The translations under genes were made by a program, and so were the position numbers. Positions 1,443 through 19,965 of a stretch of DNA of 64,000 nt are shown here, piece by piece. Every line of letters starts with the position of its first letter. The first letter of the stretch is position 1. Under the pieces are notes generated by a model. That model was not told the origin of the DNA, did no database searches, and saw only the letters and a list, made by a program, of their open reading frames with translations. The stretch is from Vicingus serpentipes. GTDB taxonomy: Bacteria > Bacteroidota > Bacteroidia > Flavobacteriales_E > Vicingaceae. The DNA is taken from assembly GCA_024103385.1 (NCBI GenBank), contig JAGFIT010000084.1, positions 1 to 64,000 of the forward strand. Reading direction: 5' to 3'.

Positions 1443-1767
1443 TTTTAGTATTTTTTTGGCTAAGATCTCTAGTTTTCAATTAATTTGATAGATCATTTTT
1501 CATTGTTATCTTTTGTGATATTTATCTGTTTTATTTTTTTATAATTTGATCATGTCCAGTGTTTTTATTTTTCAATAAATTAATACAACAGAACATTATC
1601 CAATCCCTACTTCAAAAAAATAAAAGACAACCGTACAGTTTTCTAAAGTTAAAAACAATCACTTTAGCGAAAAAATAATATCTTAATTATAATTACATTT
1701 GCAGACATTTAACCATTAAAAAAAAAGTCCATTAAACCATTGTTTTACTGTGTTTTAAATAAAAATT
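1443..1767. other. Divergent intergenic region between adhesin and EKRYF-family gene
   Basis: These 325 AT-rich bases separate two divergent starts and should hold both promoters. On the plus strand a TACATTTG at 1694-1701 fits the Bacteroidota -7 box TAnnTTTG and would serve the gene at 1768. A clear TTG -33 element at the usual distance is not visible. I see no gene or RNA here. Confidence 0.45.
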
Positions 1768-3322
1768 ATGAGAAAAAGGAAATCACAAGAATATTTGTAT
1801 GAGTTTATCAGATTAATGACAAGAGATGAGAAAAGGTATTTTACTCAAACACTTAAAGAAGTTAATGGACGGAAAAATAATTTAAGACTGCGATTGTTTG
1901 ATTTGATAAACAACAACCTTATAGAAAGCAATGAAGAAATAGATAGTAAAATTACTTTTGCAAAAAATAAATCTAAGTTAAAACATCATTTATACAACCA
2001 GCTATTAGAAATAATCTCTAATTATTCATTAGAAAAAACTTTATACTCCAAATTAAGAATACAATTAAATAAAATAGATCTACTCTATAGCAGAGGGATG
2101 CATAGAGCAACATTAAAGTTAGTAAACGCAACCATAAAACAAGCAGAAAGTATTGAAGCCAATAAAATTTTAATGGAGTTGTTTGAATATAGAATCCGTT
2201 TATTACAATATCAAAACTCCAAACCAGAAGACTCGTACGACCTTTCTAAGAAAGCAAGAGAAGCTCTACAAAAAGTAATAGAAGAATTTGAAATCTTTAA
2301 ATTGCTCACAGACACTTTTGTTACTAAGAGAGTGCTTGGTGAAAAGAAAAATGAGAAAATATGATAATTATTTTATTCAGCTTCATGAAAAAGCTTCTCA
2401 AATAGAAGGGCAAGCCTCATCATTTAAAGCTAAATCCCAATTAAATAATCTAAATTCTTTATTCTACACATATTACGGAAATAATCTTGAAGCGTCCAAA
2501 TATTCACATAAATTATATTTATTGTTTGAAGAGCACCCTATCATAAAAAAATATAATGTTAATGGTTACAATTTAGCCATTAACAATTATGCAGTAAGTA
2601 AGCTCCACATGAATGATTTTGAAGGGGCAATTAAATTATTTAATCAACTAGATAGTAAAGAAGTTTCTAATTATGAAAAAATGTTGGTTTTCCAATATAA
2701 AGCTGGGAATCAACTATCAGCACATCTTGCCCTTGGCAATATTAATAGTATATCCACTTTCATTAAAGAAATTGAAGATGGTCTTCTTGTCTATGAAAAA
2801 TATCTTTCTGATTTATTTAAAGTGATTATTTTAACTAATTTGTCAGAATATTATTTCTGGGCAAAAAACTATAGAAAAGCTAAACGATACACTAGCAATT
2901 TGCTTAACGAAGCATATTCAGAAATAAGAAAAGACATTATTCGATTTATGTATACTTTTAATTTAATTATTTCTTTCGAATCAGGAGATTATGATCATTT
3001 AAATTATTTACTCCGCTCATATCAATTAAACAGTAAATTGAAAAATAAAAACATTCTAGAACGTTGGATAGAAAGTTTTATAGAAGAAGCTCTAAAAACG
3101 ACAAAGTTAACCGCTTCTTTTTATGTTAATAAAGAGTTGGAACTTTTGAATTTTGCCTTAAAGACAGAATCATTAAAAGAAGGTTTTGACTTAAAAAAAT
3201 TTAACTTTTTAATATGGATAAGGATGAAAACGGACACAAAATCACTTAAAGAAATACGATACGAGTTTAATACTAAAGATCTGACAGGCTATGCAAAAGA
3301 TAGAGCAAAACAATTGTCCTGA
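1768..3322 (+). pseudogene. EKRYF-family helical-repeat protein, copy A, split by a +1 frameshift
   Basis: Two overlapping frames (1768-2364 and an upstream-open frame to 3322) together match the intact 516-residue protein at 16180-17730 from end to end. The first frame carries the N-terminal signature LYEFIRLMTRDEKRYF and helical segments. The second carries the homologous C-terminal half (for example NGYNLAINNYAVSKLHMNDF). The alignment switches frame at the A-run 2347-2351, so one extra A explains the break. The predicted protein is soluble, almost wholly alpha-helical, without signal peptide, and TPR-like in spacing. The function is unknown. It is divergent from the partial adhesin gene at 1442. 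It could be a pseudogene, a homopolymer sequencing error, or, less likely, programmed frameshifting. Homology to the intact paralogue is clear; the cause of the break is not. Confidence 0.8.
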
Positions 3323-3757
3323 TTCTTATTATTAATTATCAAAACTTTTTTACTTCTACTAGATTACATTATGGCATAAAACTAACTTCTTCATTTTGCT
3401 ATATAACTTACTGTTCAGCATGTTAATTATTGACCAATCTAAGTAAATGTAATTTTAAATACATTTTATTTTCGCAACAAGCTCATGCTATTCCCTTCTA
3501 CAGTACATTTATTAATGACTATTATCGCCCTTTTCACTACTAATAAATATACTTTAAAAAAAATTTAATCAATTAGAATTACGAATAGACCAGTAGAGTC
3601 TCTCTACAATAAAGTTACACTAAGTATTTCTTAAAGGCTATAATTCATTAGTAGTCTTATTAATTATTTGCAAATGTAATTATATAGGTAATTTTATTTT
3701 TTAAGCAAAATGATCATGATTAACTTTAAAAAATATAACCTCCTAATATAATTAAAA
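3323..3757. other. AT-rich intergenic region, 435 bp
   Basis: No convincing ORF, RNA or repeat is seen. The region carries the end of the frameshifted EKRYF gene and the upstream region of the beta-helix gene. A CAAATGTA near 3670 is the reverse-strand form of the Bacteroidota -7 box, but no minus-strand gene follows it, so I attach no function. Confidence 0.4.
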
Positions 3758-6700
3758 ATGAAAACGAAAAATCAATTTTTAACAATTTTAGCCTTATTTT
3801 TTAACACCATGGCTATTGGTGCCAATTATTATTTTTCAGCTACTAGCGGGAATGATTCTAGAACACCTTCTCAAGCACAAAACCCATCAACACCTTGGAA
3901 AAGTATTAACAAGTTAAACTCGATAATGAATACCCTTCAATCAGGTGATCAGGTGCTATTTAAAAGAGGGGAGGTGTTTACAGGACAAATAACTATTACT
4001 GTTTCGGGAAGTAATGGAGCACCTATTATTTTTGGAGCATATGGCACAGGAGATAAGCCTGTTATAAATGCTGCTTCTGCTGTAACTAATTGGACTAATA
4101 TTGGAGGCAATATTTGGCAAGGAGACTTTGCTATAGGAGGAGCTTCTGTTACTGGTGTTTATTCAACATACCAAGAATTGCCTTTAGGTAGATGGCCAAA
4201 TTTAAGTGCTCCCAATAAAGGATATGCCAATATCGATTCACATGGAGGAAATACTTCAATTACAAGTAGTCAATTATCAGGTGCCCCCACTTCGAATTGG
4301 ACAGGTGGAGAGGCTGTATATAGAGCCATGAGATGGGTAATTAATAAAACGCCAATAACTAGTCAAAGTGGAAATAGAATTAATATAAATGCAAATGCTT
4401 CTTATGGCCCTCAGGATGATTGGGGGTTTTTCATTCAATCACACCCTGCTACTCTTGACCAAGTTGGAGAATGGTATTATAATTCATCAAGTAAAAAAAT
4501 CCAACTATTTTCGTTAAGTACTCCTAATAACGTAACAGCTACAGCATATTCATCTTGTATTGATATTTCTAATGAGAATTATATTACTATAGATAATTTA
4601 ACACTACATGGAAGTATAGACAATAATCTTTTTACTAATCAAAGTTCTAATATTACACTTAAAAACTCAAAAAGTATAAATGCTGGAACAAATTCTATAT
4701 GGATTCAAGATAGCGACAAGATTAACATTCTTTACGATAGTATTATTAATACACACAATAATGGAATAACTTTTCAAACTACAGACAATATTGTTTGTAA
4801 TAATAATTATATAAAAAGAATGGGAGTAATTCCTGGGTTAGGAAAATCTGGAGATGGAAATTACGAAGCTATATCCTTACTTGGTTATGGCGGGGGACCA
4901 AGTCTTAATGCTACAATACAAGATAATGTATTAGATAGTTTAGGATATTTAGGAATTGGATTTTATGGCTATAGTAATGTTCTTGTACAAAATAATTTCA
5001 TTACTCATTTTGTACTTACATTAGATGATGGGGGAGGCATATATACATACACAGGGAATAGCTCAAGAACTTTTGTAAACCGCAAGATAATAGACAACAT
5101 TGTTCTTAATGCAGAGGGAGCTCCAGAAGGTACCGATGATCCTAATTACATTCCTGCAGAAGGAATTTATTTAGACGATAATGCAGCTGATGTGAAAGTA
5201 ACAGGAAATTCAATAGCAAATTGTGGAAGTACGGGTATTTTTTTACATAATGCAAAGGATATAGACTTAAAAAAGAATACGGTATACAATGCAACCAAAA
5301 AACAGCTTTCATTAGCACATGACACCTATGGAAATGCTATTACTAACTGTAATATAACAGGAAATATTTTCTTCTCAAAAACAAATAATCAATTAGTATC
5401 AAGAATTAGTTCGATTGCTAATGATTTAAATACTACAGGCATATTTGATAGTAATTATTATTGCAGGCCTTTTGACGATAATTTAATTATTACTACTTCC
5501 CAAGCTAGTTCATCTGATATATACTCTCTTGAAAGTTGGCAGACTGCTCTCGGGCAAGATCAATACTCTAAAAAAACACCTATACAATACAGCCCATTCT
5601 CTGTAAATAATCTAATTGGTGCTAATAAATTCAATAATGGTGATGGAACATTTGAGAATAATATGAATGGATTGTATTGTTGGTCTCCTGGTGGTGGTTG
5701 TGGAACAAGCCAACAATCAGGGAAATTAGATGGAAAAGCGTTGGCTTTTTATCCAAATCAAACAGACCTTACTATACTAGTTATGGAGGTTGGCCAAGTA
5801 AGTGCTTCTAAACGATATATTCTAAAATTCAGCTCAAAAACTAATACCCCAAACAAAAATATGGAGATATATTTAAGATATAGTAATACTCCTTTTTCTA
5901 AAATTTCTACAACAAGTTACTCATTATTAGACACTAATCGTGTAGAATATGAGATTTTAATCGAGCCACAAGTAAACGAAAATAATGCTAGTATAACATT
6001 TGAAATGAATCCTCCAATTGATTCTGTTTGGTTTGATAATATAGAGTTTTATGAAGCCAATATTACTATGGCTAATCCAGATGATTCTATTCGTTTTGAA
6101 TACAATGCCACTCATACACCTTTAAATGTTTCACTTTCACCATACACTTATATAGATGTGGAAGAGAATGTATATTCTGGTAGCGTCACTTTACAACCAT
6201 TTACTTCAATCATCTTGCTAAGAACAAATACTGGAACTTCTTGTACTACTCCTTCTACTCCATCAGTGGGAACTATCACCCATCCTGATTGTTCAACCCC
6301 TACAGGTAGTGTTGTATTAACAGGGTTACCTTCTTCTGGATCTTGGACTTTAACTAGAACTCCTGGTGGCACAACAACTAATGGCTCAGGTACTAGTAAA
6401 ACTATCTCAGGGCTTGCTGCTGGTACTTACTCTTATACGGTTACTAATGCTGGAGGTTGCACTTCATCAGCTTCGTCTAATGTGGTAATTAACTCACAAC
6501 CGTCTACTCCGACAACACCTGTTATTAATCAAAATGGAAATGTACTGACTTCAAGTGCTTTAACTGGTAATCAATGGTACTTGAACAGCAACCCAATTTC
6601 AGGAGCTATCAACAACACATATACAGCAACAGTTAATGGAACGTACACAGTAATTGTAACTGTTAGCGGTTGTTCTTCCAATGTATCTTTACCACTGACT

Positions 6701-6979
6701 GTCACAACTGTAGGTATTGATAGATTGATCGCTGAAACCTTTGTTTCTATTTATCCTAATCCATTTAAAGCAACATTTACTATAGAGGTTTTAGGCGAAT
6801 ATGAGTATCAAAATATGCAGGTAAAACTTTATGATGTAACGGGAAAAGAAGTAAGGTCAGTAGTCATTAATAACAAGAAAACAACTGTAGAAAGAGGAAA
6901 TCTAAGTGATGGAGTGTATTTTTATACGATTAACTCCAAAGCTAACATTATTCTTAAGGGAAAATTAATTGTCAAATAG
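3758..6979 (+). CDS. Secreted right-handed beta-helix protein with T9SS type A sorting domain
   Basis: The 1073-residue protein has a signal peptide (residues 1 to about 22). The start of the mature region (YYFSATSGNDSRTPSQAQNP, then PWKSINKLN and GDQVLFKRGE) is typical of Bacteroidota parallel beta-helix (pectate-lyase-like) proteins. Residues about 260-560 contain short beta-helix coils rich in 'N.I', 'NNNYI' and 'DNVLDS'. Residues about 610-790 resemble a carbohydrate-binding-like beta-sandwich. Residues about 825-990 hold two Ser/Thr/Gly-rich Ig-like modules. The last 80 residues form the type A sorting domain (SIYPNPFKATFTIEV ... LYDVTGKEV ... LSDGVYFYTI). A polysaccharide lyase or a surface-bound glycan-binding role is possible, but no catalytic set could be assigned. 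It is a single-gene unit with long non-coding flanks. Confidence 0.85.
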   Translation: MKTKNQFLTILALFFNTMAIGANYYFSATSGNDSRTPSQAQNPSTPWKSINKLNSIMNTLQSGDQVLFKRGEVFTGQITITVSGSNGAPIIFGAYGTGDKPVINAASAVTNWTNIGGNIWQGDFAIGGASVTGVYSTYQELPLGRWPNLSAPNKGYANIDSHGGNTSITSSQLSGAPTSNWTGGEAVYRAMRWVINKTPITSQSGNRININANASYGPQDDWGFFIQSHPATLDQVGEWYYNSSSKKIQLFSLSTPNNVTATAYSSCIDISNENYITIDNLTLHGSIDNNLFTNQSSNITLKNSKSINAGTNSIWIQDSDKINILYDSIINTHNNGITFQTTDNIVCNNNYIKRMGVIPGLGKSGDGNYEAISLLGYGGGPSLNATIQDNVLDSLGYLGIGFYGYSNVLVQNNFITHFVLTLDDGGGIYTYTGNSSRTFVNRKIIDNIVLNAEGAPEGTDDPNYIPAEGIYLDDNAADVKVTGNSIANCGSTGIFLHNAKDIDLKKNTVYNATKKQLSLAHDTYGNAITNCNITGNIFFSKTNNQLVSRISSIANDLNTTGIFDSNYYCRPFDDNLIITTSQASSSDIYSLESWQTALGQDQYSKKTPIQYSPFSVNNLIGANKFNNGDGTFENNMNGLYCWSPGGGCGTSQQSGKLDGKALAFYPNQTDLTILVMEVGQVSASKRYILKFSSKTNTPNKNMEIYLRYSNTPFSKISTTSYSLLDTNRVEYEILIEPQVNENNASITFEMNPPIDSVWFDNIEFYEANITMANPDDSIRFEYNATHTPLNVSLSPYTYIDVEENVYSGSVTLQPFTSIILLRTNTGTSCTTPSTPSVGTITHPDCSTPTGSVVLTGLPSSGSWTLTRTPGGTTTNGSGTSKTISGLAAGTYSYTVTNAGGCTSSASSNVVINSQPSTPTTPVINQNGNVLTSSALTGNQWYLNSNPISGAINNTYTATVNGTYTVIVTVSGCSSNVSLPLTVTTVGIDRLIAETFVSIYPNPFKATFTIEVLGEYEYQNMQVKLYDVTGKEVRSVVINNKKTTVERGNLSDGVYFYTINSKANIILKGKLIVK

Positions 6980-7050
6980 AATAGATAAATAACTAATCTT
7001 TTTTAAATTAATACGAATTCGATATAAAAATTTTAAAAGTAAAAATGCCC

Positions 7051-7106
7051 GCTCGAGTGAAGTTCTTTCCCGACAGCTATCGGGAGAGTTTTGTATCGAG
7101 AACGGA
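7051..7106 (-). repeat. Dispersed repeat, copy 1, with CCCGA-stem palindrome
   Basis: On the reverse strand this reads GTTCTCGATACA, a short spacer, an imperfect palindrome (CCCGATAGCTGTCGGG, 7069-7084), then CTTCACTCGA. The outer words reappear in the same order at 18151-18196. A CCCGATAG..ATC word also occurs at 54088. This fits a small non-coding interspersed repeat of the host chromosome; it lies in the spacer after the beta-helix gene. Confidence 0.55.
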
Positions 7107-7190
7107 CAAATGGTTTTCTCCCCAAAATTCACGTTAGATGCAATTTTATGGTAAAAGTTGGGTCGTTAATTCCAACATTAAAACTGTTCT

Positions 7191-7499
7191 TTAATTATTT
7201 TTAGCATCGTCAATTCCTAAATCTTTTAATATCAAGGTGTCATTTTGTTTTAGTCTTGCTATTTTCTTAGTAATGCCATTGTGCTCAGGGTATATATTTT
7301 TATTAAAAATTCTAAAAAGTTATCTGTTGATAGTAGAGGTAAACGTAAATACCCTTAATTCATTTTTCATTTCCAGAATATTCAACGCAAGATCTACTGC
7401 TTGCTCCGTAGCATAATCAATACTCGCTGGTTTTTCTGTTTTTATACATACTGCATTATGTGTAGCTTTATTAACAGAGGTAATTTTTACTATTTTCAT
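7191..7499 (-). pseudogene. Decayed FAD-binding oxidoreductase (flavodoxin/ferredoxin reductase-like) fragment
   Basis: The reverse strand from the ATG at 7499 reads MKIVKITSVNKATHNAVCIK, then KPASIDYA, AVDLALN, NELRVFTFTS and a stop. This is the usual start of bacterial flavodoxin-reductase-like proteins (FAD domain, with RxFTFTS as the flavin-binding stretch). Past the stop the homology continues: STDNFLEFLIKIY in a shifted frame, then back in the first frame PEHNGITKKIARLKQNDTLI and LKDLGIDDAKNN up to a TAA at 7191. So the gene has two compensating frameshifts, and it lacks the whole NAD(P)-binding half (family length about 220). It starts 4 bases after the sigma factor stop, so it was probably co-transcribed with it. 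Identification rests on recalled family patterns. Confidence 0.7.
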
Positions 7500-7503
7500 A
7501 ACT

Positions 7504-8175
7504 TTAAATACTTTTCATTACACTTTCAGTTATTCTGTCGCATCGGCTAAATCCAAACTCAAATACTTCTGCCTTGCTGGATAAACGATATAACGTTTCT
7601 TTTAAAATCTCTTTAGCACGGTGAAGCCTAATTTTCACATTGGCAAGACTAATGTTTAGGGCAATGGCAATTTCTTTTAAGCTCATCTCTTCCACTTCTT
7701 TCATTACATAAACCGTTTTATACTTTATATCCAATTGGTCAATGGCGTTTTCTAACAACTGTTTGGTTTCCTGCTGTGTCATTTTTTCTTGTGGGTTAGC
7801 TTGTTTTTGATCTGGAATTTCTAATACAGCATCATTATCTGTATTAAAGTTATAATCATTAATATGTAATATTTTACCTTTCTTTTTTAATACAGCTAAC
7901 GATTCGTTAATTCCTATACGCACAAGCCAGGTAGAAAACTGTGAATCTAAATTAAATTGATACAGTTTTGTGTAAGCTTTTATATAACTGTTTTGCATTA
8001 CATCTTCAATTTCTGCTTCTTCTTTTAGATAACTTCTTATTACCCGATACAGTTTTTGATTGTTACGTCTCACCAAAATCTCGTATAGTTCTTTTTCACC
8101 AGCCAGTATGCGTTTTATTACTAGGTCTTCTTTTATTTTATGATGATGAAAATCTTTGATGTCTAATGCTTCCAT
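7504..8175 (-). CDS. ECF-type RNA polymerase sigma factor
   Basis: The 223-residue protein has sigma region 2 (about 25-95: LYEILVRRNNQKLYRVIRSY, AEIEDVMQNSYIKAY, FSTWLVRIGINESL), a variable linker, and region 4 (about 145-195: YKTVYVMKEVEEMSLKEIA followed by the helix-turn-helix LNISLANVKIRLHRAKEILK). The tail (FEFGFSRCDRITESVM) is typical of a Bacteroidota sigma-70 subfamily. It would direct transcription of a small regulon. No anti-sigma gene is adjacent. It is divergent from the DoxX / PTPS / FolE genes, and a perfect 18-bp palindrome lies between the two. The gene downstream on the same strand is a decayed reductase. Sigma/pterin/photolyase neighbourhoods are known in this phylum, so a light or oxidative stress response is a reasonable guess, not a demonstrated role. 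Confidence 0.9.
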   Translation of the reverse strand: MEALDIKDFHHHKIKEDLVIKRILAGEKELYEILVRRNNQKLYRVIRSYLKEEAEIEDVMQNSYIKAYTKLYQFNLDSQFSTWLVRIGINESLAVLKKKGKILHINDYNFNTDNDAVLEIPDQKQANPQEKMTQQETKQLLENAIDQLDIKYKTVYVMKEVEEMSLKEIAIALNISLANVKIRLHRAKEILKETLYRLSSKAEVFEFGFSRCDRITESVMKSI

Positions 8176-8225
8176 AACTGTTTTATTGTTTTAGCTTTCT
8201 TATTAGATGGTTCATTTTTAAAAAA

Positions 8226-8243
8226 GATACAAAATTTTGTATC
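8226..8243. promoter_or_regulatory. Perfect 18-bp palindrome in divergent promoter region
   Basis: GATACAAAATTTTGTATC is perfectly self-complementary and lies between the sigma factor start (8175) and the DoxX start (8308). It could be an operator for a dimeric regulator of both directions. It is followed by a T-run on the plus strand and preceded by an A-run, so a bidirectional terminator-like hairpin is the alternative, although no gene reads into it from either side. Confidence 0.45.
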
Positions 8244-8307
8244 CTTTTTTTATTATGGTTATCAAATGGGTGTAAAAAGAAATATAAACCCCTTAAAATT
8301 AAAATTT

Positions 8308-8691
8308 ATGAATGCAAACGTAACACTGGTAAAAAATATATTAAAATATACTTTTGGGCTTGTTCCAATTGTAGCTGGATTAGATAAATTTACGAATATT
8401 TTAACCAATTGGAGTCAATATATATCAGAAGGTTTTGCTGGGATGCTTCCTTTTGATGCTGCTTCATTTATGATGGTAGTTGGTGTAATTGAAATTGTAG
8501 CTGGTATTTTAGTATTAACTAAAACTAAGATTGGAGCTTATGTTGTTTCAGCTTGGTTAGTAGCCATTGCCCTAACATTAATTTTTAGTTGGAGTTATGT
8601 AGATGTTGCCGTAAGAGATTTAGTAATGGCAATTGCTGCTTTTTCTTTAGCAAAATTAACGGAAACAACTAGTGATAAAGTAAGTCAGTAA
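8308..8691 (+). CDS. DoxX-like four-helix membrane protein
   Basis: I use the ATG at 8308 (MNANVTLVKNILKYTFGLVP) rather than the upstream in-frame ATG at 8266. The upstream one would add 14 residues unlike the family and lie closer to the palindrome. The 127-residue product has four hydrophobic segments and the DoxX-like features GLVPIVAGLDKF near the start and GVIEIVAGILVL in the second helix. Proteins of this group are small inner-membrane proteins, often linked to redox stress, with no agreed reaction. It begins a plus-strand run with the PTPS and FolE genes, 65 bases ahead of the PTPS start. A second DoxX protein is encoded at 34506. Confidence 0.8.
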   Translation: MNANVTLVKNILKYTFGLVPIVAGLDKFTNILTNWSQYISEGFAGMLPFDAASFMMVVGVIEIVAGILVLTKTKIGAYVVSAWLVAIALTLIFSWSYVDVAVRDLVMAIAAFSLAKLTETTSDKVSQ

Positions 8692-8756
8692 GACACCTTT
8701 TATGCTGCCATTTGCAACTATTTTTCTTGCAAGTGGCAGTTCAAATTATCAAATTT

Positions 8757-9167
8757 ATGAAAGCTTCCATTTACCGAGAAGAACATTTTAACTCAGCCCA
8801 TCGGTTACACAATCCTAAGTGGAGTGACAAAAAAAATAAAACTGTGTTTGGCAAATGTAACAACCCAAATTTTCATGGGCATAATTATAAATTATTGCTA
8901 AAACTAACAGGAAACATTGACGAAAACACGGGTTATGTTTATGATGCCAAAAAATTAAGTAAGCTTATAAAATCGGCCATTATAAATAAGTTAGACCATA
9001 AAAATTTAAACTTAGATGTAGTCGAATTTAAACACCTAAACCCTACCGCAGAAAATATTGCATGTGTAATATGGAATATTTTGAGAAAAGAAATAAACGA
9101 AAAATATCAATTAAAAATAACTTTATATGAAACAGAACGGAACTTTGTTGAATACCCAAGTACCTAA
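8757..9167 (+). CDS. 6-pyruvoyl-tetrahydropterin synthase / QueD family protein
   Basis: The protein has 136 residues from the ATG at 8757 (MKASIYREEHFNSAHRL). The longer frame from 8712 adds a hydrophobic stretch absent from the family. Zinc-ligand histidines are visible in FNSAHRLH and in NFHGHNY, the catalytic Cys lies in GKCNNPNFHGH, and LDHKNLN and PTAEN(I/A) are the conserved later motifs. The enzyme converts 7,8-dihydroneopterin triphosphate to a 6-pyruvoyl or 6-carboxy pterin. It overlaps the FolE frame by 41 bases, so the two are probably translated together. FolE supplies its substrate. Whether the product enters queuosine synthesis or a tetrahydrobiopterin-type cofactor cannot be told; the absence of queC/queE nearby and the sigma context favour a dedicated pterin. 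Confidence 0.88.
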   Translation: MKASIYREEHFNSAHRLHNPKWSDKKNKTVFGKCNNPNFHGHNYKLLLKLTGNIDENTGYVYDAKKLSKLIKSAIINKLDHKNLNLDVVEFKHLNPTAENIACVIWNILRKEINEKYQLKITLYETERNFVEYPST

Positions 9168-9801
9168 AGATGATGAAACATGTATAACACCAAAAAACAC
9201 GATTACATCACCTATAAAAAAAGATGATTTTAGTATTTCTAATGAAGAAAAAATAAGAATAATTACTCATCATTTTAAAGAAATAATGGATGTTTTAGGG
9301 TTAGATTTAAACAATGATAGTTTAAAGGAAACTCCAAAAAGAGTTGCTAAAATGTATGTTAATGAAATATTTTCTGGATTAAACCCTAAAAACAAACCTG
9401 AAATAACTCTTTTTGATAATGAGTTTAACTATACTGAACCACTGATTGAAAAAAATATTCCTTTTACCTCTTTTTGTGAACACCATTTTGTACCTATTCA
9501 AGGAATTGCTAATGTGGCTTATATTCCAAGTAATAAAGTGATAGGGTTATCTAAAATTCACCGAGTGGTTGATTATTTTTCCAAACGACCACAAGTACAA
9601 GAACGCCTTACTTTGCAAATCCAAAACGAATTAAAAACAATACTTAAAACCGATGATGTTGGTGTGGTAATAAAGGCTTCCCACAGTTGTATTTCTTGCC
9701 GAGGGATTGATCATCAAGGCAGTTACACCATTACTTCTTTTTTGCCCAAAAGTTTTAAATCAAGCACGGATATAATGACTTGCTTAAATACCTTCAAATA
9801 A
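9127..9801 (+). CDS. folE: GTP cyclohydrolase I
   Basis: The 224-residue protein catalyses GTP to 7,8-dihydroneopterin triphosphate, the first pterin step. Motifs seen: LKETPKRVAKMY, the zinc site FCEHHFVPIQG, KVIGLSKIHRVVDYFSKRPQ, QERLTLQI, and the second zinc Cys region SHSCISCRG. The 40-odd residues before the catalytic core are low in conservation, so the true start may be later than 9127, although no other ATG lies before residue 53. The overlap with the PTPS gene indicates translational coupling. It is a normal-length, apparently intact enzyme. A second folE may exist elsewhere for folate synthesis. Confidence 0.9.
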   Translation: MKQNGTLLNTQVPKDDETCITPKNTITSPIKKDDFSISNEEKIRIITHHFKEIMDVLGLDLNNDSLKETPKRVAKMYVNEIFSGLNPKNKPEITLFDNEFNYTEPLIEKNIPFTSFCEHHFVPIQGIANVAYIPSNKVIGLSKIHRVVDYFSKRPQVQERLTLQIQNELKTILKTDDVGVVIKASHSCISCRGIDHQGSYTITSFLPKSFKSSTDIMTCLNTFK

Positions 9802-9845
9802 TCTAAGAATAGCATATTCTGAAAACGTGTTGGAATACTTATAGC

Positions 9846-10116
9846 TTACCCAGCCAAAAATTTAATCACCCTTTTTTTAAATGGCTCACATCAACTCCTT
9901 TTTCAATCGTTTTACCTTTGGCAACTCTTATTCCTGTTTCGAGTTAGTTATTGTTTTTATATTAACATCCTTCCTCGCTAATGCTCACCATTTGTAAAAT
10001 ACATTGCACTTGAATGCCAATTCATCAGCTAATTCTTTTATGTTTTCTCACTGACAACTTAAATTGACAGTTTTCTCTTTAAACGATTCGTTGTATTTCC
10101 TTTTTTCTTTCCCCAT
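9846..10116 (-). pseudogene. Decayed IS3-family transposase OrfA remnant
   Basis: The reverse strand from the ATG at 10116 reads MGKEKRKYNESFKEKTVNLS, then a stop, then ENIKELADELAFKCNVFYKW, another stop, and later LPKVKRLKKEL and a 'PFKKRVIKFLAG' tail. This follows the helix-turn-helix and leucine-zipper layout of IS3 OrfA proteins, but has several stops and frame changes. No OrfB (DDE) part and no terminal inverted repeats were recognised. The remainder of 9802-10444 holds no gene; a 62-codon ORF at 10190-10378 is low-complexity and probably chance. Confidence 0.6.
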
Positions 10117-10444
10117 AATTCTAAGGTCTTGTTTTTATTATTAAAACAATCTTAATTTTTATGTCCCAGCTAAGTTAGAAAACCCAGTTGTGAGAGTAAC
10201 TGTTTCGGCTACACCTATTTTTATTAAATTCTTTTTAATAGAGATTAACCCTTGTATTTACTTGTTTTTTTTTCTAATTACTTTTTTTTGCAAAAGTAAT
10301 TATAAGTGTAAAATTGATTGTGTCTTGGTTGGGATGGACTTATCTTACACTTTGATAAACTTAAGATGTTGGATGTAATTATCATTTATCAAAAAAACAT
10401 TTTAATGTTCTGCTTTTACCTTAAACAACTATTAAAGTTCGATT

Positions 10445-13400
10445 ATGAATAATTTTAAAGTATTTGCGATACTATTTTTACTTTTTTTCACTTATAATAT
10501 AGCCGCTCAACACTCAAAAGAGAACCATTATGCTGAAAATTTTTTTGATCTTTCAAAGTTAAAAGGGCTTCATGTTGAATATGTTTTGGAGCATCATTTT
10601 ATCGAGACCAATATAAAAGAGGCGTTTTATAGCGAATTATCAAAATTTGGCGCATCCAATAACTACAATGTTGATCATCTAACACGTTATTATTTAACAA
10701 ATTTTAATGTTTATTCTACCCATTTCAAACATCATATTTTTGATGCTTATCCTACTAAAATAGCTAGTTATGATCTTTCGTTAAAAGAAGAAGACTTGTT
10801 GTTTAATCGTTTAGAATTAACCCAATATATTAAATCAATTATACCTATAATTCTAGCAGATTATCATCATGAAGGATATAGTAAAAATACCTTTAGCGTA
10901 GATGATATAGCTACTTCATACAGGGATATTCTTAAGAAAAAAAGGAATGATAAAGGAGCAGGAGAAGAATGTAATAACCCTGATTTTGAAACCTGTGATT
11001 TTACTGGTTGGGAAATGTATACAGGATCGGTAAATTCTAATCCTTATGAGATGATTAATACCGTTACAACAGATAAGTGGTGTAGTGAAAATACAGGAAT
11101 TTGTTATAATGATACTGCTAGCGGAGGGTCTTGTGGATGCACTACTGGCGATGCAAATTGTGCTGGGCAAAATGATTGTATTGCCGCATTTGTAAACCCT
11201 ATAACAGGTGCGTGTACATGTACTGATTGTCCATGCGGATTAGTTCACCCTTATGATCCATCTCACTATACAGTTAATCCTGGAGTTGATGCTCATACAA
11301 ATGTTATTCAGGAAGTGAATCCTAATGGGGGAGGATGTGCTGCAGTTATAGGAGATTATAGGGGAACTGGAAGTAGAGCAGCAAGTATTGTCCAAACTTT
11401 TAGGGTGAGTACCAATAGTGCTAATTTTTCATACAGTTATGCTGCCGTTTTAGAAGACCCTTCAGGACATACATTAGGGGAAAAACCTTTTTTTAAAGTT
11501 AACATGTATGATGCTAATGGGGATGACATTATCTGTGGACTATATAGTGCTACTGCAGGTGATGGTCAAGCAGGATGGATAAATGCTGGGAGTTATGTTT
11601 ACAAAGATTGGACCACTGTTTTTGTTCCATTACAGGGATATATTGGACAAGATGTAACCATAGAGTTTATTGTAGGAGATTGTTCTCAGGGAGGGCATTT
11701 TGGATACGCTTATATTGATATGACCTGTTCTCCATTAGAATTGTTAATAGGTTCTGCGGCTCCTTGTGGTCCAACAACGATATCGGCACCACCAGGAGCC
11801 GATAGTTATCTATGGTCCCCTACTGGAGAGACCACGCAAGCAATTACTCCTACAACAAGTGGAACATATAGCGTAACAATTACTCCGGTATCTGGATCAG
11901 GTTGTTCTGTAACATTAGATACAACTGTAACAATAGAGCCCAAATCGGTAACGGCAGGTTTTACCAGTGCTTCGGGGTGTGTTGGTGTTCCCGTTACTTT
12001 TACCGATCAATCAACTACTACAGGAACTACCATAGATACTTGGGCATGGGATTTTGGAGATGGAAATACTTCTACTCAACAGCACCCCTCCCACACTTAT
12101 GCTTCTGTTGGCAGTTTTAATGTAACCCTAACAGTTACCAGTTTTGATGGTTGTACAGATAATATAACCTTACCTATAACGATAAATCCTTGTATTGGCC
12201 CTCAAATTACCTTAGTGGGTGATACTATTTGTGAAGGTGAAACAGGTACACTAACCGCTATAGGAACAGATGGAACATTAAACTACACCTTTGATTGGAC
12301 AGGTGGAGGAATTACCGGGAATTCTGATAATGGAACTACAGACCCTACAACTGTTACTCAAACAGATAATCCCGCAACCACCACCACCTATACCGTATTA
12401 ATTACCGATAACAATGGAGATACTGCTACTGCTACTGCAGATATTGTGGTTAATCCTCTACCTAACGTAAGTGCTGACAGTGATGCTTCAATATGTATAG
12501 GGGAATCTGTTAACATTACAGGATCTGGAGCTAACACGTATGTATGGGATAATGGATTACCTGCCATAGCAGGACCACACTCGGTGTCACCAGGGGTAAC
12601 CACTACTTATACCGTAACCGGAACAGATGTGAATGGTTGTGTGAATGACTCTAGTGTAACCATAACCGTAAATCCATTACCAACCATTACCACAGCAGAC
12701 GAAGCCGTATGTTGGGAAGATTCAGTTCAAATTTGCGCAGCAGGAGGAGCTACTTATACTTGGGCTGCATTTGATGGAGGATTATTTGATGCAGGCAACA
12801 CAGGAGCATGTGTGTATGTAGAAGGAGACCTAAGCGCCCCAGGAGCAGACTATACCAGACAATATGAAGTTACTGGAACAGATGTGAATGGTTGTGTTGG
12901 TATAGATACAGCAACCGTTACCTATGAAGCCATTTGTGGACCAAGTGTGATGGCTACAGGAGATACCATTTGTATCAATGAACCTTCAGCTAGTTTGACT
13001 ACAGTAATTACCAATACCACAGGAGTAGTGACTTATGCCTGGACACCAATAACGAATTTAGATGACCCTACCAGCCCTAATCCTGTATTTACCCCAACAG
13101 TAGACGGAACATTTACTTATACTGTCACCATTACTGATGACCTAGGAACAGATACCGATAGTACCATCATTATTGTCCACCCCTTACCGCTAGTGATAGG
13201 TTCATTAGATACGGCTATATGTATAGGAGCCTCAGCGAATGTTACAGCTTCAGGAGCGATTAGCTATGTATGGGACAATGGTTTACCCACCACAGCAGGG
13301 CCGCACAATGTGAGCCCAGGAGTAACTACCACTTATACCGTAACCGGGACAGATGTCAATGGATGTGTAAATGATTCAACAGTAACCATTACGGTGAACC

Positions 13401-16123
13401 CATTACCAATTATTACTACAGCGGACAATTCAGTATGTAAAGATAACCCGATTACCATTTGTGCAGCAGCAGGAGTAACTTATAGTTGGATTTCCTTAGA
13501 CGGAGGATTGATTAATGGTTCCTCTACCACTACATGTATTGATGTAGAGACAGACAATCCAACAGCAACAGCAGATGAAGAGAGAAGATATGAAGTGACA
13601 GGATCCGATGCCAATGGCTGTGTGAATACAGCCATTTCTACGGTGACCTTTAACTACATTTGTGGATTAACCATAAGAGCCACAGGAGATACCATTTGTG
13701 AGGGAGATGTTGCTCAATTAACTTCTGATACTAGTTTTGTAACGGGAGCTGTAACTTACTCTTGGACGCCAACTGCAGGGTTAAGTGATCCAACAGCAGC
13801 TAACCCTACAGTAACAGGATTAACCACTACTACTACTTATCAGGTAATTGCTACGGATGCTCTTGCTTCTGATACTGCTACAGCTACTGTGATGGTTAAT
13901 CCCCTACCAGCAGCTAACGATCAAACTCCTGCTGCCATGTGTGAAGATACGCAAGGTTCAGGAACGGTTGCTGGTATTGATTTAACTGCTAATGAGGCAG
14001 CCATCAATGGTGGTTTAGTGACTTACGATTGGTTTGGGGCACTTCCTCCTGCTTCGCCTATTGCTACACCTAACAATGTAACCGTGAGTGATGCGCAAGT
14101 GTTCTATGTGTTAGTAACCGATAATGTTACTGGTTGTGTAGATACTGCTATGGTAACTTATACAGTGAATCCTTTACCGGTTCCTGATGCGGGAATGGAT
14201 CAAGCTATTTGTATTGGTGATAATGCTACGGTAACGGCTACTTCTACTGGGGCTAATCCTATTACCTATACCTGGGATCAAAATCCTCCGGGAACAGGGG
14301 CAGGACCTCATACTTTAAGTCCAACTGCTACTACTACTTATACGGTAACGGCTACGGATAATAATGGTTGTGTAAATACTGATACTATGACTATCACAGT
14401 AAATCCTCTACCGGTGCCTGATGCTGGAATTGATCAAACGATTTGTATTGGTGATAATGCTACGATTACGGCTACTTCTACTGGGGCTAATCCTATTGGG
14501 TATACTTGGGATAATGGTCTGCCTGCAACTAGTGGTCCTCATAATGTAAGCCCTGCTGCTGCTACTACTTATACGGTAACGGTTACGGATAATAATGGTT
14601 GTGTGAACACTGATGTGGTAACGGTAACGGTTAATCCTTTACCGACTCCTAATGCGGGAGTTGATCAAACGATTTGTTTGAATACGAGTACTACTATTAC
14701 TGCTATTTCTGGTGGAACGGGGCCTTTTAATTTTGTTTGGGATAATGGTCTGCCTGCAACTAATGGCCCTCATACGGTAAGTCCTGCTGTTGGTACAACT
14801 ACTTACATTGTTACGGTGACTGATGCTAATGGTTGTGTCAATAGTGATAGTGTAGACATTACGGTAAATCCTATTCCTACTATTGTGGCTAGTAATGACA
14901 CTACCATTTGTGCTGGTGAGTCTGCTACTTTATTTGCAAGTGGAGGAAGTACTTATGTGTGGAGAAATTTAACCACAGGGGTTGATTTTTCTACCAGTGC
15001 TAATCCAACGGTACAGCCTACTGATGCCAACACTTGTTATCAGGTAACGGGTACGGATGCTGCTAGATGTTCTAGTACTGATCTGGTATGTGTAACGGTG
15101 GAGCAACCTCCTGTAACTAACTTTACTGTGGCTCCTGTATGTAATGGTGGCACTTCTTCTTTTAACAATACTACTACTGGAGGTGCTACCTACAATTGGA
15201 ACTTCGGTGATGGAAATACTTCCAATGTTTTTAGTCCGCAACATGTATATAATGGAGAAGGTAAATACTATGTACAATTAACCGCTACTAGTGCTGCAGG
15301 ATGTGTGAGTACTTATGCAGATACTGCTATAGTAAAATATGTGCCTGTGATGAATTTCGATGGAATTAACTTAACGGGTTGTCCTCCTGTAACTTCCACT
15401 TTTACGAACAGATCAGACTCTTTAGATCCCAACTTCACCTATTTCTGGGATTTTGGTGATGGAACATCATCTAACACGAGTGATACTACTGTTTCTCACA
15501 CTTATTCTGAAGTGGGAAGTTATACGGTAAGACTGACCATAACAACTAATGGTTGTTCTGATATGAGAGAACGTATCAACTATGTAATAATTCACCCTGT
15601 ACCTGAAGCTCACTTCACTGCTGAACCTAGTATAGTAGATATTTATGAACCTACGATTAATTTTACAGACCTTTCTATAGGGGCAGATCAATGGTCATGG
15701 GATTTTGGAGATTTAAATGGATCAAATGATCAACATCCTACTCATCAATATACTGATACCGGTACTTTTGTTGTGTGGTTATGGGTAGAAAACCAGTTTG
15801 GTTGTAAGGATTCTGCTACAAAACCTGTTCGTGTAAGGGATATATACACTTTCTTTGCTCCTAACAGTTTTACGCCTGATGGAGATGGAGTAAATGATGT
15901 CTTCTTACCGCAAGGGCATGCCATTGATATGGATGAATACACCTTGTATATTTTTGACAGATGGGGAGAATTGATTTTTGAAACGAATGATTATTATGAA
16001 GGATGGAACGGAATATATCAAGGAAGGCCCGTTCAAATTGATACTTATGTATGGAAAGTCGATTTAAAAGACATCTTCGGTGAACATCATAAGTATATCG
16101 GTAAAGTTAGTGTATTGAGGTGA
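10445..16123 (+). CDS. Giant PKD/repeat adhesin with T9SS type B C-terminal domain
   Basis: The 1892-residue protein has a signal peptide (cut after about YNIAAQ), then a unique domain of about 150 residues and a Cys-rich region (residues 175-290). A beta-sandwich-like domain follows, then many Ig/SprB-like modules ending in VNPLP. PKD domains are seen near residues 532 (WAWDFGDGN), 1582 (YNWNFGDGN), 1665 (YFWDFGDGT) and 1749 (WSWDFGDLN). The last 90 residues are the gliding-motility-associated type B sorting domain ([40 protein letters not shown]). It should be exported by T9SS and held at the cell surface, acting in adhesion or gliding. The repeats are nearly identical at the DNA level (see separate entries). 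The next gene, an EKRYF-family member, is convergent, 56 bases away. Confidence 0.9.
12210..13905 (+). repeat. Higher-order repeat inside adhesin gene, about 730 bp period
   Basis: Three different modules recur in the same order: a 'GDTIC' module, an 'ICIG...WDNGLP...GPH' module and a 'TTAD..VC...ICAA' module. The GDTIC word falls near 12222, 12958 and 13685, giving spacings of about 730 bases. The unit therefore occurs twice, with the first module present a third time. DNA similarity between copies is high, indicating duplication of a three-module block. Confidence 0.7.
14170..14880 (+). repeat. Three tandem adhesin modules of about 235 bp
   Basis: Copies start near 14170, 14414 and 14645. 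Each reads as 'PDAG.DQ.ICIG', '[14 protein letters not shown]', 'TTTYTVT.TD.NGCVN', 'VTVNPLP'. Two related copies lie further upstream near 12460 and 13190. Parts of the DNA are almost unchanged between neighbours, so the array is recent or kept alike by recombination. Confidence 0.7.
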
Positions 16124-16179
16124 TTTGCTTTTATTGAGAATATTTCTAAATCTAGAATTAAACTAAAAAAATAACTGAT

Positions 16180-17730
16180 TTAAATTAATTGTTTTATTCT
16201 CATATTAATATAATCTATTATTTCATTATTATTATATTCAAGTAGAATTTCTTTAAATGGTTGTTGATCTGTTTTACTTCTTAACCATACTAGAAGGTTA
16301 AATTTTGATAAATCGATAGGGTCGTTTGAATTTTGGGAATTCAAAACTATTTTTAATAAGTCTAATTCTTTTTCTATATAAAAAGAAGAATCTATTTTAA
16401 CCCTTTTTATAGCATCTTCCATGAACCGAACTAACCAAAGTTCTGCTAATGTTTTGTTTTTTAATTTACGACTACTTTTATAAGAGTTTAACAAATATTG
16501 TAAGTACACAAGGTCTTCTGTTTCAAAACAAATAATAAGGATAAGTGCTTTAGTAACCCTGACGACATCTCTTCGTAAGTTCGGGGAAGATAGATTAAGT
16601 AGTTTATTGGAATAAAGTTTTGCCTTCTTATAATTTTTTGTCCAAAAGAAATACTCAGACAAATTACTTAAAATAGTTATTTTAAATAAGTCAGAAATAT
16701 ATTTGTCATACGTCTCTAACCCTTTTTCAATCCATTTTATGAAGTCCGATAATCCTCCAATTCCCCCACTTTGAATATGTGCTACTAATTTATTGCTTGA
16801 TAAATACTGAAAAACAACCATTTTTTCATGGAAAGGCAGTCCTGAATCATCCATTTTTTCAAAAAGAGTTAAAGCTCCTTGAAAATCTTTTGTCTGAAAC
16901 TTACTTACTGCATAATTGTTGATGGCTGTGTTATATTGATTCTTCCTATATTTTTTCATTAAAATATTTTTCTCAAATAATAAGAAAGTATTTTTTGATG
17001 CACGCTCGTATTCCACTGAATTTTTTTGGTAATTATGAAATAAGGCAATTAAAGTATTGATATAATAATGTGTATTAAAAGAGATAGAAGCATTTTGTAA
17101 TGCTATTGCCTTCTTATATAATTTTTTAAATACTTTTTTATGTTCTGTTGTCTGCCTTGACTGAATTTTTACGATACTAAACCCATCAAAAAGTATTTTA
17201 AAACTTTCAAACTCAACCTCTACTTTCCTCAAGGCTTCTCTATTTTTTTCTGTAAGTTTATTAGAATCTTCCATTTTTAAGTTTTGATATTGAAGCAGCT
17301 TTATTTTATACTCATACAATTCTACTAACATTATATTAGCTTCAATTTTATTAGCTTTATTTATAGAGTCGTTTACTAATTTTAAACAAGGTTTATATAA
17401 TGCTCTACTATATAGTAAGCCAATTGTATTTAGTTGCAACCTCAATTTCGAGTAGGCATCTTTTTCTAATGAATAAATTGTCGATGCCTCTAATAACTTA
17501 GAATATAAATCAGATTTTAGCTTAGACTTGTTATTTGTAAAAGCTATTTCAGCGTCAATTTCATCATTGGTTTTATTTAAGTTATCATTAATAACTTTGA
17601 ATAATCTAAGACCAAGATTGTTTCTTCCTCCAGAATTACTTTTAACCGTCTGAGTGAAATATCTTTTTTCATCCTTACTCATCGTCCGAATAAAGTCATA
17701 TAAATAACTTTGATATTTTCTTTTTCTCAT
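16180..17730 (-). CDS. EKRYF-family helical-repeat protein, copy B (intact)
   Basis: The 516-residue soluble protein has no signal peptide or membrane segment. The N-terminus carries the family signature LYDFIRTMSKDEKRYF, followed by NLGLRLFKVIND and KSDLYSKLLEA, a layout shared with copies A (1768) and C (18407). The rest is predicted to be alpha-helical, with TPR-like helix pairs such as NQYNTAINNYAVSKFQTKDF and FKITILSNLSEYFFWTKNYK. It is Lys-rich and may bind nucleic acid or a partner protein through the N-terminal part; this is speculation. Similar proteins of unknown function are common in Bacteroidota genomes. It is convergent with the 1892-residue adhesin. I assign no function. Confidence 0.85.
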   Translation of the reverse strand: MRKRKYQSYLYDFIRTMSKDEKRYFTQTVKSNSGGRNNLGLRLFKVINDNLNKTNDEIDAEIAFTNNKSKLKSDLYSKLLEASTIYSLEKDAYSKLRLQLNTIGLLYSRALYKPCLKLVNDSINKANKIEANIMLVELYEYKIKLLQYQNLKMEDSNKLTEKNREALRKVEVEFESFKILFDGFSIVKIQSRQTTEHKKVFKKLYKKAIALQNASISFNTHYYINTLIALFHNYQKNSVEYERASKNTFLLFEKNILMKKYRKNQYNTAINNYAVSKFQTKDFQGALTLFEKMDDSGLPFHEKMVVFQYLSSNKLVAHIQSGGIGGLSDFIKWIEKGLETYDKYISDLFKITILSNLSEYFFWTKNYKKAKLYSNKLLNLSSPNLRRDVVRVTKALILIICFETEDLVYLQYLLNSYKSSRKLKNKTLAELWLVRFMEDAIKRVKIDSSFYIEKELDLLKIVLNSQNSNDPIDLSKFNLLVWLRSKTDQQPFKEILLEYNNNEIIDYINMRIKQLI

Positions 17731-18406
17731 AATAAATACTGTAAATTACATGTATTTTAGTAGACGTAGAGTGCGCTTATAAATATAAGAAGGTTTTTTA
17801 AAAATGGAAAATAGATGTATTTTTATTTCTTAGATAGAAAGTGAAATCCAAAATTGACGTTTTGTAGAGATTGTTAAGGAAAAAACCTGTCTATTGATTC
17901 CAACAACTAAGTGTGGTATTTAGCTGAAATGTTCTAAAAAACTTTATTACAAAGGCATTAATTAAGCCTTAAATCTTGTGTTCATTAGGGCGTGCGGGAT
18001 CAAACTGGAATTCCTAAAAGAAGTAAGACAACAACGTTAAAACTATTTTTGTGAACCCGTTGCGCATTTTAACAAAATTCTGTCAATTCGAATTTCACTA
18101 TTGAAAAGAGTGAAATTAGTATCGAGAATAGAAATTTTGGTATTTAAACTAGTTCTCGATACATCCCAAAGCAAGTTCGGGGCACTCGAACTGACAAATA
18201 ATTATTATTTTTATTCAAAATGCACAACAGGTTTTATGGTTTTAACAACAACCTTTGTCAATCTTAACTAAGGTTATTATTTATGTAAAGAAATTGTCTA
18301 AAAAAGAGGTAATAAAGTTTAGCTGAGTAGGCTTTTACCCTAATTAAGTACCAATTGTATTGAGAAAAAAAAGAGAGATGTTTCATCGATTTTTTGAGTT
18401 TTAAAG
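17731..18406. other. Intergenic region, 676 bp, between two EKRYF-family genes
   Basis: No coding region is recognised. The region holds one copy of a dispersed repeat (18151-18196). Short TATCGAGAA words at 18120 and, inverted, at 18153 could form a stem. It must contain the promoter of copy B and the end of copy C. Confidence 0.45.
18151..18196 (+). repeat. Dispersed repeat, copy 2
   Basis: It begins AGTTCTCGATACA and ends CACTCGAACTGAC, with TTCGGGG in the middle. It matches the outer words of the copy at 7051-7106 in the opposite orientation. The central palindrome is degenerate here. Confidence 0.5.
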
Positions 18407-19870
18407 CTAAAAAACAAACCCCATTTGACCCATCAATTCTTTAAGTGCTAAATCTTTAGAATTGGTAACCGCTTTTTTAAAATTGGTATATATTTCTTTT
18501 TCTTCTTCCTTATCATTACATTTTAAGAACAACTTAATTGTAGATATAGCTTCTTTCTCTATATCTAACATTTTTCCTTTTTTTGAGAAATACCGCTGTG
18601 ATGATCTTAATAAATAAGGCAGGGAATCAATGTAACCCATCTCATAATAAATAAATAATTGCATAATTTTCGCAGAAGATTGAATATTCGGATGCTGGTT
18701 ATTTTGATCATAATCTAACAATTTATTTATCCATCCCGTTGCTTGATGATATTCTTTTAATTGAAAAAACAGGCAAGAAAGACCAAAGAAAATATTTTGT
18801 TCCCCAACTGTCCCTAAAACTCCTGAGTAAGTTGCTAACCCTTTTTTAACATCAGGAACAAGCTTTAATAATTTATCAAACTGCTTAGTTTTCAAATACA
18901 TTTTTATTTCCATATGATAAGAAGAATTAAAAACAGCACTTTTAACTCCTTTCTCTTTTGATTTAATAGCTCTCATTATTTTTAAATAATGTTCAAAATC
19001 TTGTTGATTTCCAACCCCAACACAAGACAACAATAAATTATGTAATGCAGCAATATAGTTAAACACTTTATACGGAATAAATTGTGGATATTCATCATAC
19101 AACTCAAAACGCTTTTTTTGATACAAAAAGCTTTTCTTATAGTCTTTTATTGCTGCATAATACATGGATTTGGCATGATAATACGATCTCTTCGTGTGGT
19201 ACAATGTAGCAAGATTTTCATTTTGAAGTAAAAGGTGGTTATTCAATTCATGTAGCTTGTCTATTAATTTACTAGTATTTCCTTTCCCAAAATTTATCGA
19301 TTGAAGATATATCTCATTAGCTAAATTTTCATATTCGCTAATTTGTTTAATATAGCTTATGCAAGAAGATTCTAATCTATATAGTCTTCTATAGGTATCC
19401 TGTTGAGACTCTTTGAAGACTGGATAACTTATTAAAAATCGTTCTAATTTTATCAAAATTATTTTATCCAAAAACTGTTCATACCTATCTACATATTGAT
19501 ATGCTTTAACAAGTAGTTTTTTGGCTTGTTTAAAAAGCGATCGTTTTGAGAGGTATTTAATATTGCTAACCATCTCATTAACACTTTCATCTGTTGATGT
19601 ATTCTCGACATAAAACTCTCGCATCACACGTAAAATCTTTTTATACAAATATGCTTTCGCTACTGAGAAGTTTTTTTTATTATCAAACTGCGCTAATAAT
19701 TCTTTTTCATCGTATTTATCCTTTTTCTTTGATTGTTTATCAATAGCATCAAATAGGCCTAAATAATGCATGTTTCTTCCTCTTTTTAAAGCATCTATCT
19801 TAAAATACCTTTTCTCTGTTTTGGTCATTGATTTTATCAACTGAAATAAATCGTCAGAAGTCAATTTCAT
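18407..19870 (-). CDS. EKRYF-family helical-repeat protein, copy C
   Basis: The 487-residue soluble, mainly alpha-helical protein has the N-terminal signature LFQLIKSMTKTEKRYFKIDA, followed by NMHYLGLFDAIDKQ and FSVAKAYLYKKILRVMREFY. This is the same three-part head as copies A and B but clearly more diverged. The middle and C-terminal parts look like TPR-type helix pairs (KQAKKLLVKAYQYVDRYEQF; YHQATGWINKLLDYD). There is no signal peptide. It is divergent from the two-gene secreted-protein operon that starts at 20027, with 156 bases between starts. A TATATTTG on the minus strand (19908-19915) fits its -7 box. The function is unknown; the repeated location beside adhesin genes suggests a role in their expression or export. 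Confidence 0.82.
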   Translation of the reverse strand: MKLTSDDLFQLIKSMTKTEKRYFKIDALKRGRNMHYLGLFDAIDKQSKKKDKYDEKELLAQFDNKKNFSVAKAYLYKKILRVMREFYVENTSTDESVNEMVSNIKYLSKRSLFKQAKKLLVKAYQYVDRYEQFLDKIILIKLERFLISYPVFKESQQDTYRRLYRLESSCISYIKQISEYENLANEIYLQSINFGKGNTSKLIDKLHELNNHLLLQNENLATLYHTKRSYYHAKSMYYAAIKDYKKSFLYQKKRFELYDEYPQFIPYKVFNYIAALHNLLLSCVGVGNQQDFEHYLKIMRAIKSKEKGVKSAVFNSSYHMEIKMYLKTKQFDKLLKLVPDVKKGLATYSGVLGTVGEQNIFFGLSCLFFQLKEYHQATGWINKLLDYDQNNQHPNIQSSAKIMQLFIYYEMGYIDSLPYLLRSSQRYFSKKGKMLDIEKEAISTIKLFLKCNDKEEEKEIYTNFKKAVTNSKDLALKELMGQMGFVF

Positions 19871-19965
19871 AAAATACTTAGTTTAGATTCTTTTAATTAC
19901 TTGATTACAAATATAATATAAAATAATATGATAACATAAAATACTTAGTTTAATACAAATTAGAA

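Follow-up and report, generated by a model that had tools for sequence, protein, structure and literature searches.

What does a family of cytoplasmic helical proteins do beside the genes for giant T9SS surface proteins? The question is raised by the window analyzed here, a stretch of 64,000 nucleotides (contig C66:1-64000) from a 3.1-Mb draft genome, in which three genes code for proteins that begin with a common EKRYF head. Copy B (16180-17730, minus strand; 516 aa) and copy C (18407-19870, minus strand; 487 aa) are intact. Copy A (1768-3322, plus strand) had been described in an earlier note as a single unit, but it consists of two overlapping ORFs (1768-2364 and 2288-3322) that resemble copy B (59% identity in frame 1 and 46% in frame 2), and the frame changes near 2345-2360. 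The change lies close to GAAAAGAAAAATGAGAAAAT (window 2281-2400), and no long homopolymer is present. The frame change may represent either a pseudogene or an assembly error.

We compared the three copies with each other and with known families. All three matched the NCBIfam family BT_2802_fam (NF058569), with E values of 1e-12 and 1e-6 for the two ORFs of copy A, 2e-14 for copy B and 2e-33 for copy C. The matches are collinear and nearly full-length, covering positions 4-502 (B) and 4-468 (C) of 502. They miss the curated cut-off of 550 bits: the window ORFs scored 116 (copy C), 53, 48 and 28 bits, and the best score in this genome was 194 bits. Judged by these alignments, the window proteins are distant homologues of BT_2802_fam, the family of RusR. 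The earlier label of "uncharacterised" does not wholly hold, since BT_2802_fam/RusR is a relative. Head positions E, R, Y, L38, F39, K70, L73 and Y74 are invariant in 12 aligned paralogues from this genome, and we therefore regard the shared head as real. Invariant residues and a BT_2802_fam match in every copy confirm the proposal that A, B and C form one family.

An AlphaFold model of copy C built from 62 sequences (pLDDT 90.2) predicted a basic head of five helices, spanning about residues 1-92, followed by a TPR superhelix (93-482). The TPR-like body read from the sequence is thus a confident prediction. Its closest structural matches were Rap (Z 19.1), NprR (Z 18.8) and LGN (Z 18.2), and because LGN reaches such a score, the likeness to Rap and NprR may be generic. 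The head predicted alone (pLDDT 84) was most similar to the VP30 C-terminal domain (Z 7.3), and searches of it with Foldseek and VIA returned no match with a Z of 8 or more. The suggestion that the N-terminal head might be a known DNA-binding fold was accordingly not borne out at that threshold. A helix-turn-helix was considered and dropped for want of such a structural match; DNA binding is still compatible with the model. The head carries a net charge of +4.5, versus +1.1 per 92 aa of body. Among PDB sequences, the whole protein found only generic TPR relatives (kinesin light chain) and the head found nothing significant.

The ORF map and translations confirmed the arrangement first noticed in the window. 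Copy A is divergent from an adhesin fragment of at least 480 aa (3-1442, minus strand) that is truncated where the contig ends, and copy C is divergent from a gene for a 527-aa protein with a Por_Secre_tail domain (Pfam; 20027-21610, plus strand). Both products carry a Cys-rich "KLCIT" head, the LCIT head of the earlier note, in their translations. Copy B is convergent with the gene for a 1892-aa PKD/Ig_7 adhesin with a CHU_C domain (Pfam; 10445-16123, plus strand), also as claimed. Downstream of copy A lies the gene for a 1073-aa beta-helix protein with Por_Secre_tail (Pfam; 3758-6979, plus strand), and directly after the partner of copy C is the gene for a 2374-aa adhesin with CHU_C in the genome scan (21613-28737, plus strand). 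A T9SS sorting domain (Por_Secre_tail or CHU_C) was found in the window partners that could be tested; the fragment left of copy A ends at the contig end. Adhesin fragments at the left end of this contig (window 1-75) and at the right end of contig C19 (L032) share the final residues NTIDLTTLETGTTGGTWSGTGVSGT, and because of these identical ends the two contigs probably break in one repeat. The window also encodes an ECF-type sigma factor (Sigma70 r2/r4; 7504-8175) between the T9SS neighbor of copy A and GTP cyclohydrolase-like genes.

Fourteen EKRYF loci are present in this genome, two of them frameshifted (copy A and the locus on C68). Window copies A and C, two loci on C57 and those on C19, C12, C22, C68 and C47 are divergent from a T9SS or adhesin gene; the partner on C12 is an M1 peptidase and that on C68 a subtilase, each with a sorting domain. 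On C38, two EKRYF genes in tandem are followed, in the same orientation, by a gene for a CHU_C adhesin of 1943 aa. Only the copies on C72 and C3 are without T9SS neighbors, and the C3 copy diverges from an HMGL-family gene set that resembles a leucine operon. By comparison, T9SS genes number about 112 of roughly 2700 in the genome, the gene total being an estimate. Paralogous EKRYF genes have paralogous partners. Identity is 81% between copy C and the second copy on C57 (C57b) and 77% between their partners (527 and 524 aa); copy B and the C47 copy are 62% identical and their partners (1892 and 1651 aa) 61% over 1368 aa; the C19 copy and the first on C57 (C57a) are 57% identical and their partners 46% over 583 aa. 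These three sets of pairs strengthen the idea, raised in the earlier note, that the pair duplicates as a cassette: going by sequence identity, EKRYF genes and partners evidently duplicated together, and the adhesin of copy B evidently stayed adjacent although its orientation changed.

We then asked whether the pairing holds in other genomes. The first sample joined the copies of this genome with 100 loci from 26 other genomes, of relatives and class members (27 genomes in all). EKRYF genes had a divergent upstream neighbor in 95 of 109 cases (87%), and the remaining genes of those loci in 197 of 795 (25%; P 4e-37); 19 of 20 held-out loci, drawn mostly from genomes not sampled before, showed the same layout. 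The T9SS fraction was highest at gene offset -1 (47%), falling to 20% at -2 and +1, 13% at +2 and mostly 2-13% further away. With improved sorting-domain models, 49 of 88 divergent partners carried a T9SS sorting domain, compared to 12 of 163 matched controls, which were the other divergent gene pairs in the same loci (P 5e-17). After clustering at 45% identity, a T9SS partner remained in 35 of 69 clusters, versus 4.5 expected. The held-out loci gave 9/19 against 1/42 control pairs, and 80 named loci forming a second sample, in part shared with the first, gave 24/51 against 21/214. Enrichment was weaker among the most distant homologues of the second sample (9/51 at -1). The sorting-domain counts are undercounts, as some partners are DUF7948/SprB-repeat adhesins in which no sorting domain was detected. 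Thus the T9SS neighbors that the earlier note proposed to look for around homologues are enriched, and the EKRYF/T9SS pairing is far beyond chance in this and other genomes. The family is Bacteroidota-wide and nearly always pairs head to head with a single gene, most commonly one that encodes a secreted surface protein. We found no paper linking it to T9SS genes in the open-access literature.

Copy number reaches 28 in one genome (G029). At four of its loci (L136, L141, L142 and L148), some of these matches alternate with genes for proteins of 1360-1584 aa that share the C-terminal end KNQLCPG.Y.VNIKDKNGC and have no detected sorting domain. The one such partner that was scanned contained DUF7948, SBBP, PKD and SprB repeats and likewise gave no sorting-domain match.

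Partners other than T9SS genes recur in the same layout. An HMGL-family/leucine gene is the partner in five genomes, and elsewhere a glyoxalase-family gene (VOC; Pfam) is the partner, followed by a gene that looks DUF2461-like by inspection. The highest-scoring BT2802-like homologues (L317-L319) adjoin a ribokinase/sugar-transporter set that is divergent from the EKRYF gene in L317 and co-directional in L318 and L319. In a tree of 66 rows, partners changed between T9SS and other types at least 18 times, with many branches weakly supported. This recurrence indicates that the family trait is an adjacent, mostly divergent partner, of which T9SS genes are the commonest kind. By inspection, three loci (L232, L234 and L245) have a conserved divergent partner consisting of a single receiver domain (ADDDDDDREFF), and in L232 and L245 a T9SS gene lies on the other side of the EKRYF gene; the divergent partner in L262 and L279 resembles a LytTR DNA-binding protein. 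Three further loci (L068:7900-8343, L124:10066-10497 and L125:10091-10516) encode divergent proteins of 141-147 aa with a Cys-rich end and no signal peptide, and the two that were scanned gave no Pfam match.

The promoter regions of several copies contain repeated elements. At copy C, the 15-mer ACTAAGTATTTTATG occurs on the minus strand at 19868-19882, overlapping the start codon, and again 67 bp upstream at 19935-19949. We treat these as two halves of a candidate operator. Exactly four copies of this 15-mer are found in the 3.1-Mb genome, two at copy C and two at its paralogue C57b, spaced 67 bp apart at both loci with one ending in the start codon; the C19 locus has a copy with two mismatches. 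A different block, also a candidate operator, precedes copy A (1639-1712, plus strand). Elsewhere in the genome it is matched best at 3660-3733 (minus strand), a site 25-98 bp ahead of the gene for the 1073-aa T9SS protein, with 75% identity over 74 bp and a genome-wide E value of 3e-6; the runner-up (E 8e-4) extends over 32 bp. We considered whether the 1073-aa gene was once preceded by a second EKRYF gene, since lost, and rejected this, having seen no coding remnant among the matches listed. Private repeated promoter elements are therefore present at two loci as candidate operators. No promoter block common to copy B, the C47 copy and the 1892-aa gene was found.

Orthologues linked to the M1 peptidase conserve TTGTAWTCCTAT about 90 bp upstream, with a similar sequence at the start codon. 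The start-codon block was repeated upstream in 15 of 145 EKRYF copies versus 2 of 350 control genes (P 2.5e-4 across clusters). A general operator built on this repeat was set aside, the signal being weak in most copies and clear in few clusters, and a 10-bp ladder of repeat spacings vanished in aggregate, leaving no helical phasing overall. Given that the family-wide signal, though significant, is weak and not phased, we limit the term candidate operator to the repeats of a few groups.

Local control of transcription is the reading favored by gene orientation, by the private promoter elements, by the variety of partner functions and by the RusR precedent. We think it fairly probable that every EKRYF protein works in the cytoplasm as a transcription regulator with one target, its neighbor, most often a T9SS surface-protein gene. 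At the divergent promoter common to both genes, the basic helical head would bind to DNA, to RNA polymerase or to some other factor; the superhelix of TPRs would respond to a metabolite, peptide or protein and so switch the activity. Regulator and target would then duplicate and diverge together, giving one controller per surface protein. DNA binding, the sign of control and the signal are features that we infer. The paralogous pairs and private promoter repeats lend weight to control of expression, one of the roles offered by the earlier note, with DNA binding presumed; copy B, convergent with its adhesin and sharing no promoter block with it, counts against this reading, as do a head with no convincing DNA-binding match, a start-codon repeat that is clear in few clusters and the weaker T9SS enrichment among the most distant homologues. 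In a Rap-like variant, which we consider unlikely, the head would bind not DNA but another transcription factor, such as a response regulator or ECF sigma factor, that controls the partner gene. Rap proteins bind Spo0F and ComA in this manner. In favor are Rap and NprR as the leading structural matches of the body, a head that matches no helix-turn-helix, and divergent partners that at some loci have a receiver domain or resemble LytTR proteins. However, the Rap match is tied with LGN, so that it may be generic TPR likeness, and no transcription factor is constantly adjacent to EKRYF genes. A more specific and rather doubtful idea is that the superhelix reads its own exported partner, for example through the signal peptide after cleavage, a chain left unexported or a fragment of the sorting domain; across the phylum, each surface adhesin would then have a private, one-to-one feedback controller that duplicates along with it.

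The other role proposed in the earlier note, in folding or export, would cast the EKRYF protein as a cytoplasmic chaperone or export pilot devoted to the giant protein encoded next to it. In its favor, peptide binding is common among TPR bodies, related EKRYF proteins have related partners, and copy B stays beside its adhesin without a common promoter. This role is nevertheless disfavored, and we now hold it to be improbable, because members of the family adjoin genes for cytosolic enzymes (ribokinase/ribose, HMGL/leucine and VOC) in the same layout; moreover, 87% are divergent rather than co-operonic, and T9SS cargo crosses the inner membrane first, via Sec. Very improbable, in our judgment, is a post-transcriptional mechanism in which the head would attach to the mRNAs of its own gene and its partner's, either at the start codon or in the 5' leader. 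It would suit the basic head and the repeats that overlap the EKRYF start codon in copy C and the M1-peptidase group, but the second repeat precedes the probable promoter (TATATTTG box, by inspection) and falls outside the transcribed part, and no element was shown in partner leaders. Finally, T9SS genes, which are frequent (about 112 here), might be so long, isolated and prone to adjoin any divergent gene that the pairing is a coincidence of genome architecture. Only 7-10% of matched divergent pairs involve one, compared to 47-56% for EKRYF, and we give this explanation a nearly negligible chance.

If local transcription control by EKRYF proteins is correct, it would explain, gene by gene, how Bacteroidota select from their dozens of T9SS surface proteins. 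A family in which RusR is essentially the sole characterised member would become a predictable class whose target can be read from the divergent neighbor. Such neighbor-specific controllers would complement a picture in which the known regulators, PorXY and SigP, act on T9SS genes globally. EKRYF proteins would differ from these in being local, with one copy per target, and in belonging to another protein type.

We compared the EKRYF proteins to regulators with similar architecture. Members of the RRNPP family of Firmicutes (Rap, NprR, PlcR and Rgg) also combine an N-terminal effector head with a TPR superhelix, and Rap and NprR are the best structural matches of the EKRYF body (Z about 19), although LGN scores nearly as high. 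They show no detectable sequence match to EKRYF proteins, and their heads are a helix-turn-helix (Rgg, NprR, PlcR) or a three-helix bundle (Rap), whereas the EKRYF head has five helices and no known helix-turn-helix fold was found in it. A propeptide partner of the RRNPP kind was sought and rejected: short leader ORFs lie downstream of 16 of 190 EKRYF copies, versus 107 of 956 other genes. Were the feedback idea correct, the family would correspond in Bacteroidota to the RRNPP systems, with secretion rather than a pheromone as the signal sensed. Domain III of MalT, another hit, is likewise a TPR-like sensor body in a transcription factor, but the ATPase domain and LuxR-type helix-turn-helix of MalT are without counterpart in EKRYF proteins. 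The closest comparison is with RusR, which, going by the NCBIfam naming, is probably BT2802. RusR of Bacteroides thetaiotaomicron has been described as a regulator of ribose genes (PMC12596196). Like the EKRYF genes beside their partners, it is located beside its target; the window EKRYF genes differ from it in having T9SS surface proteins rather than ribose genes as partners and in occurring as many paralogues per genome.
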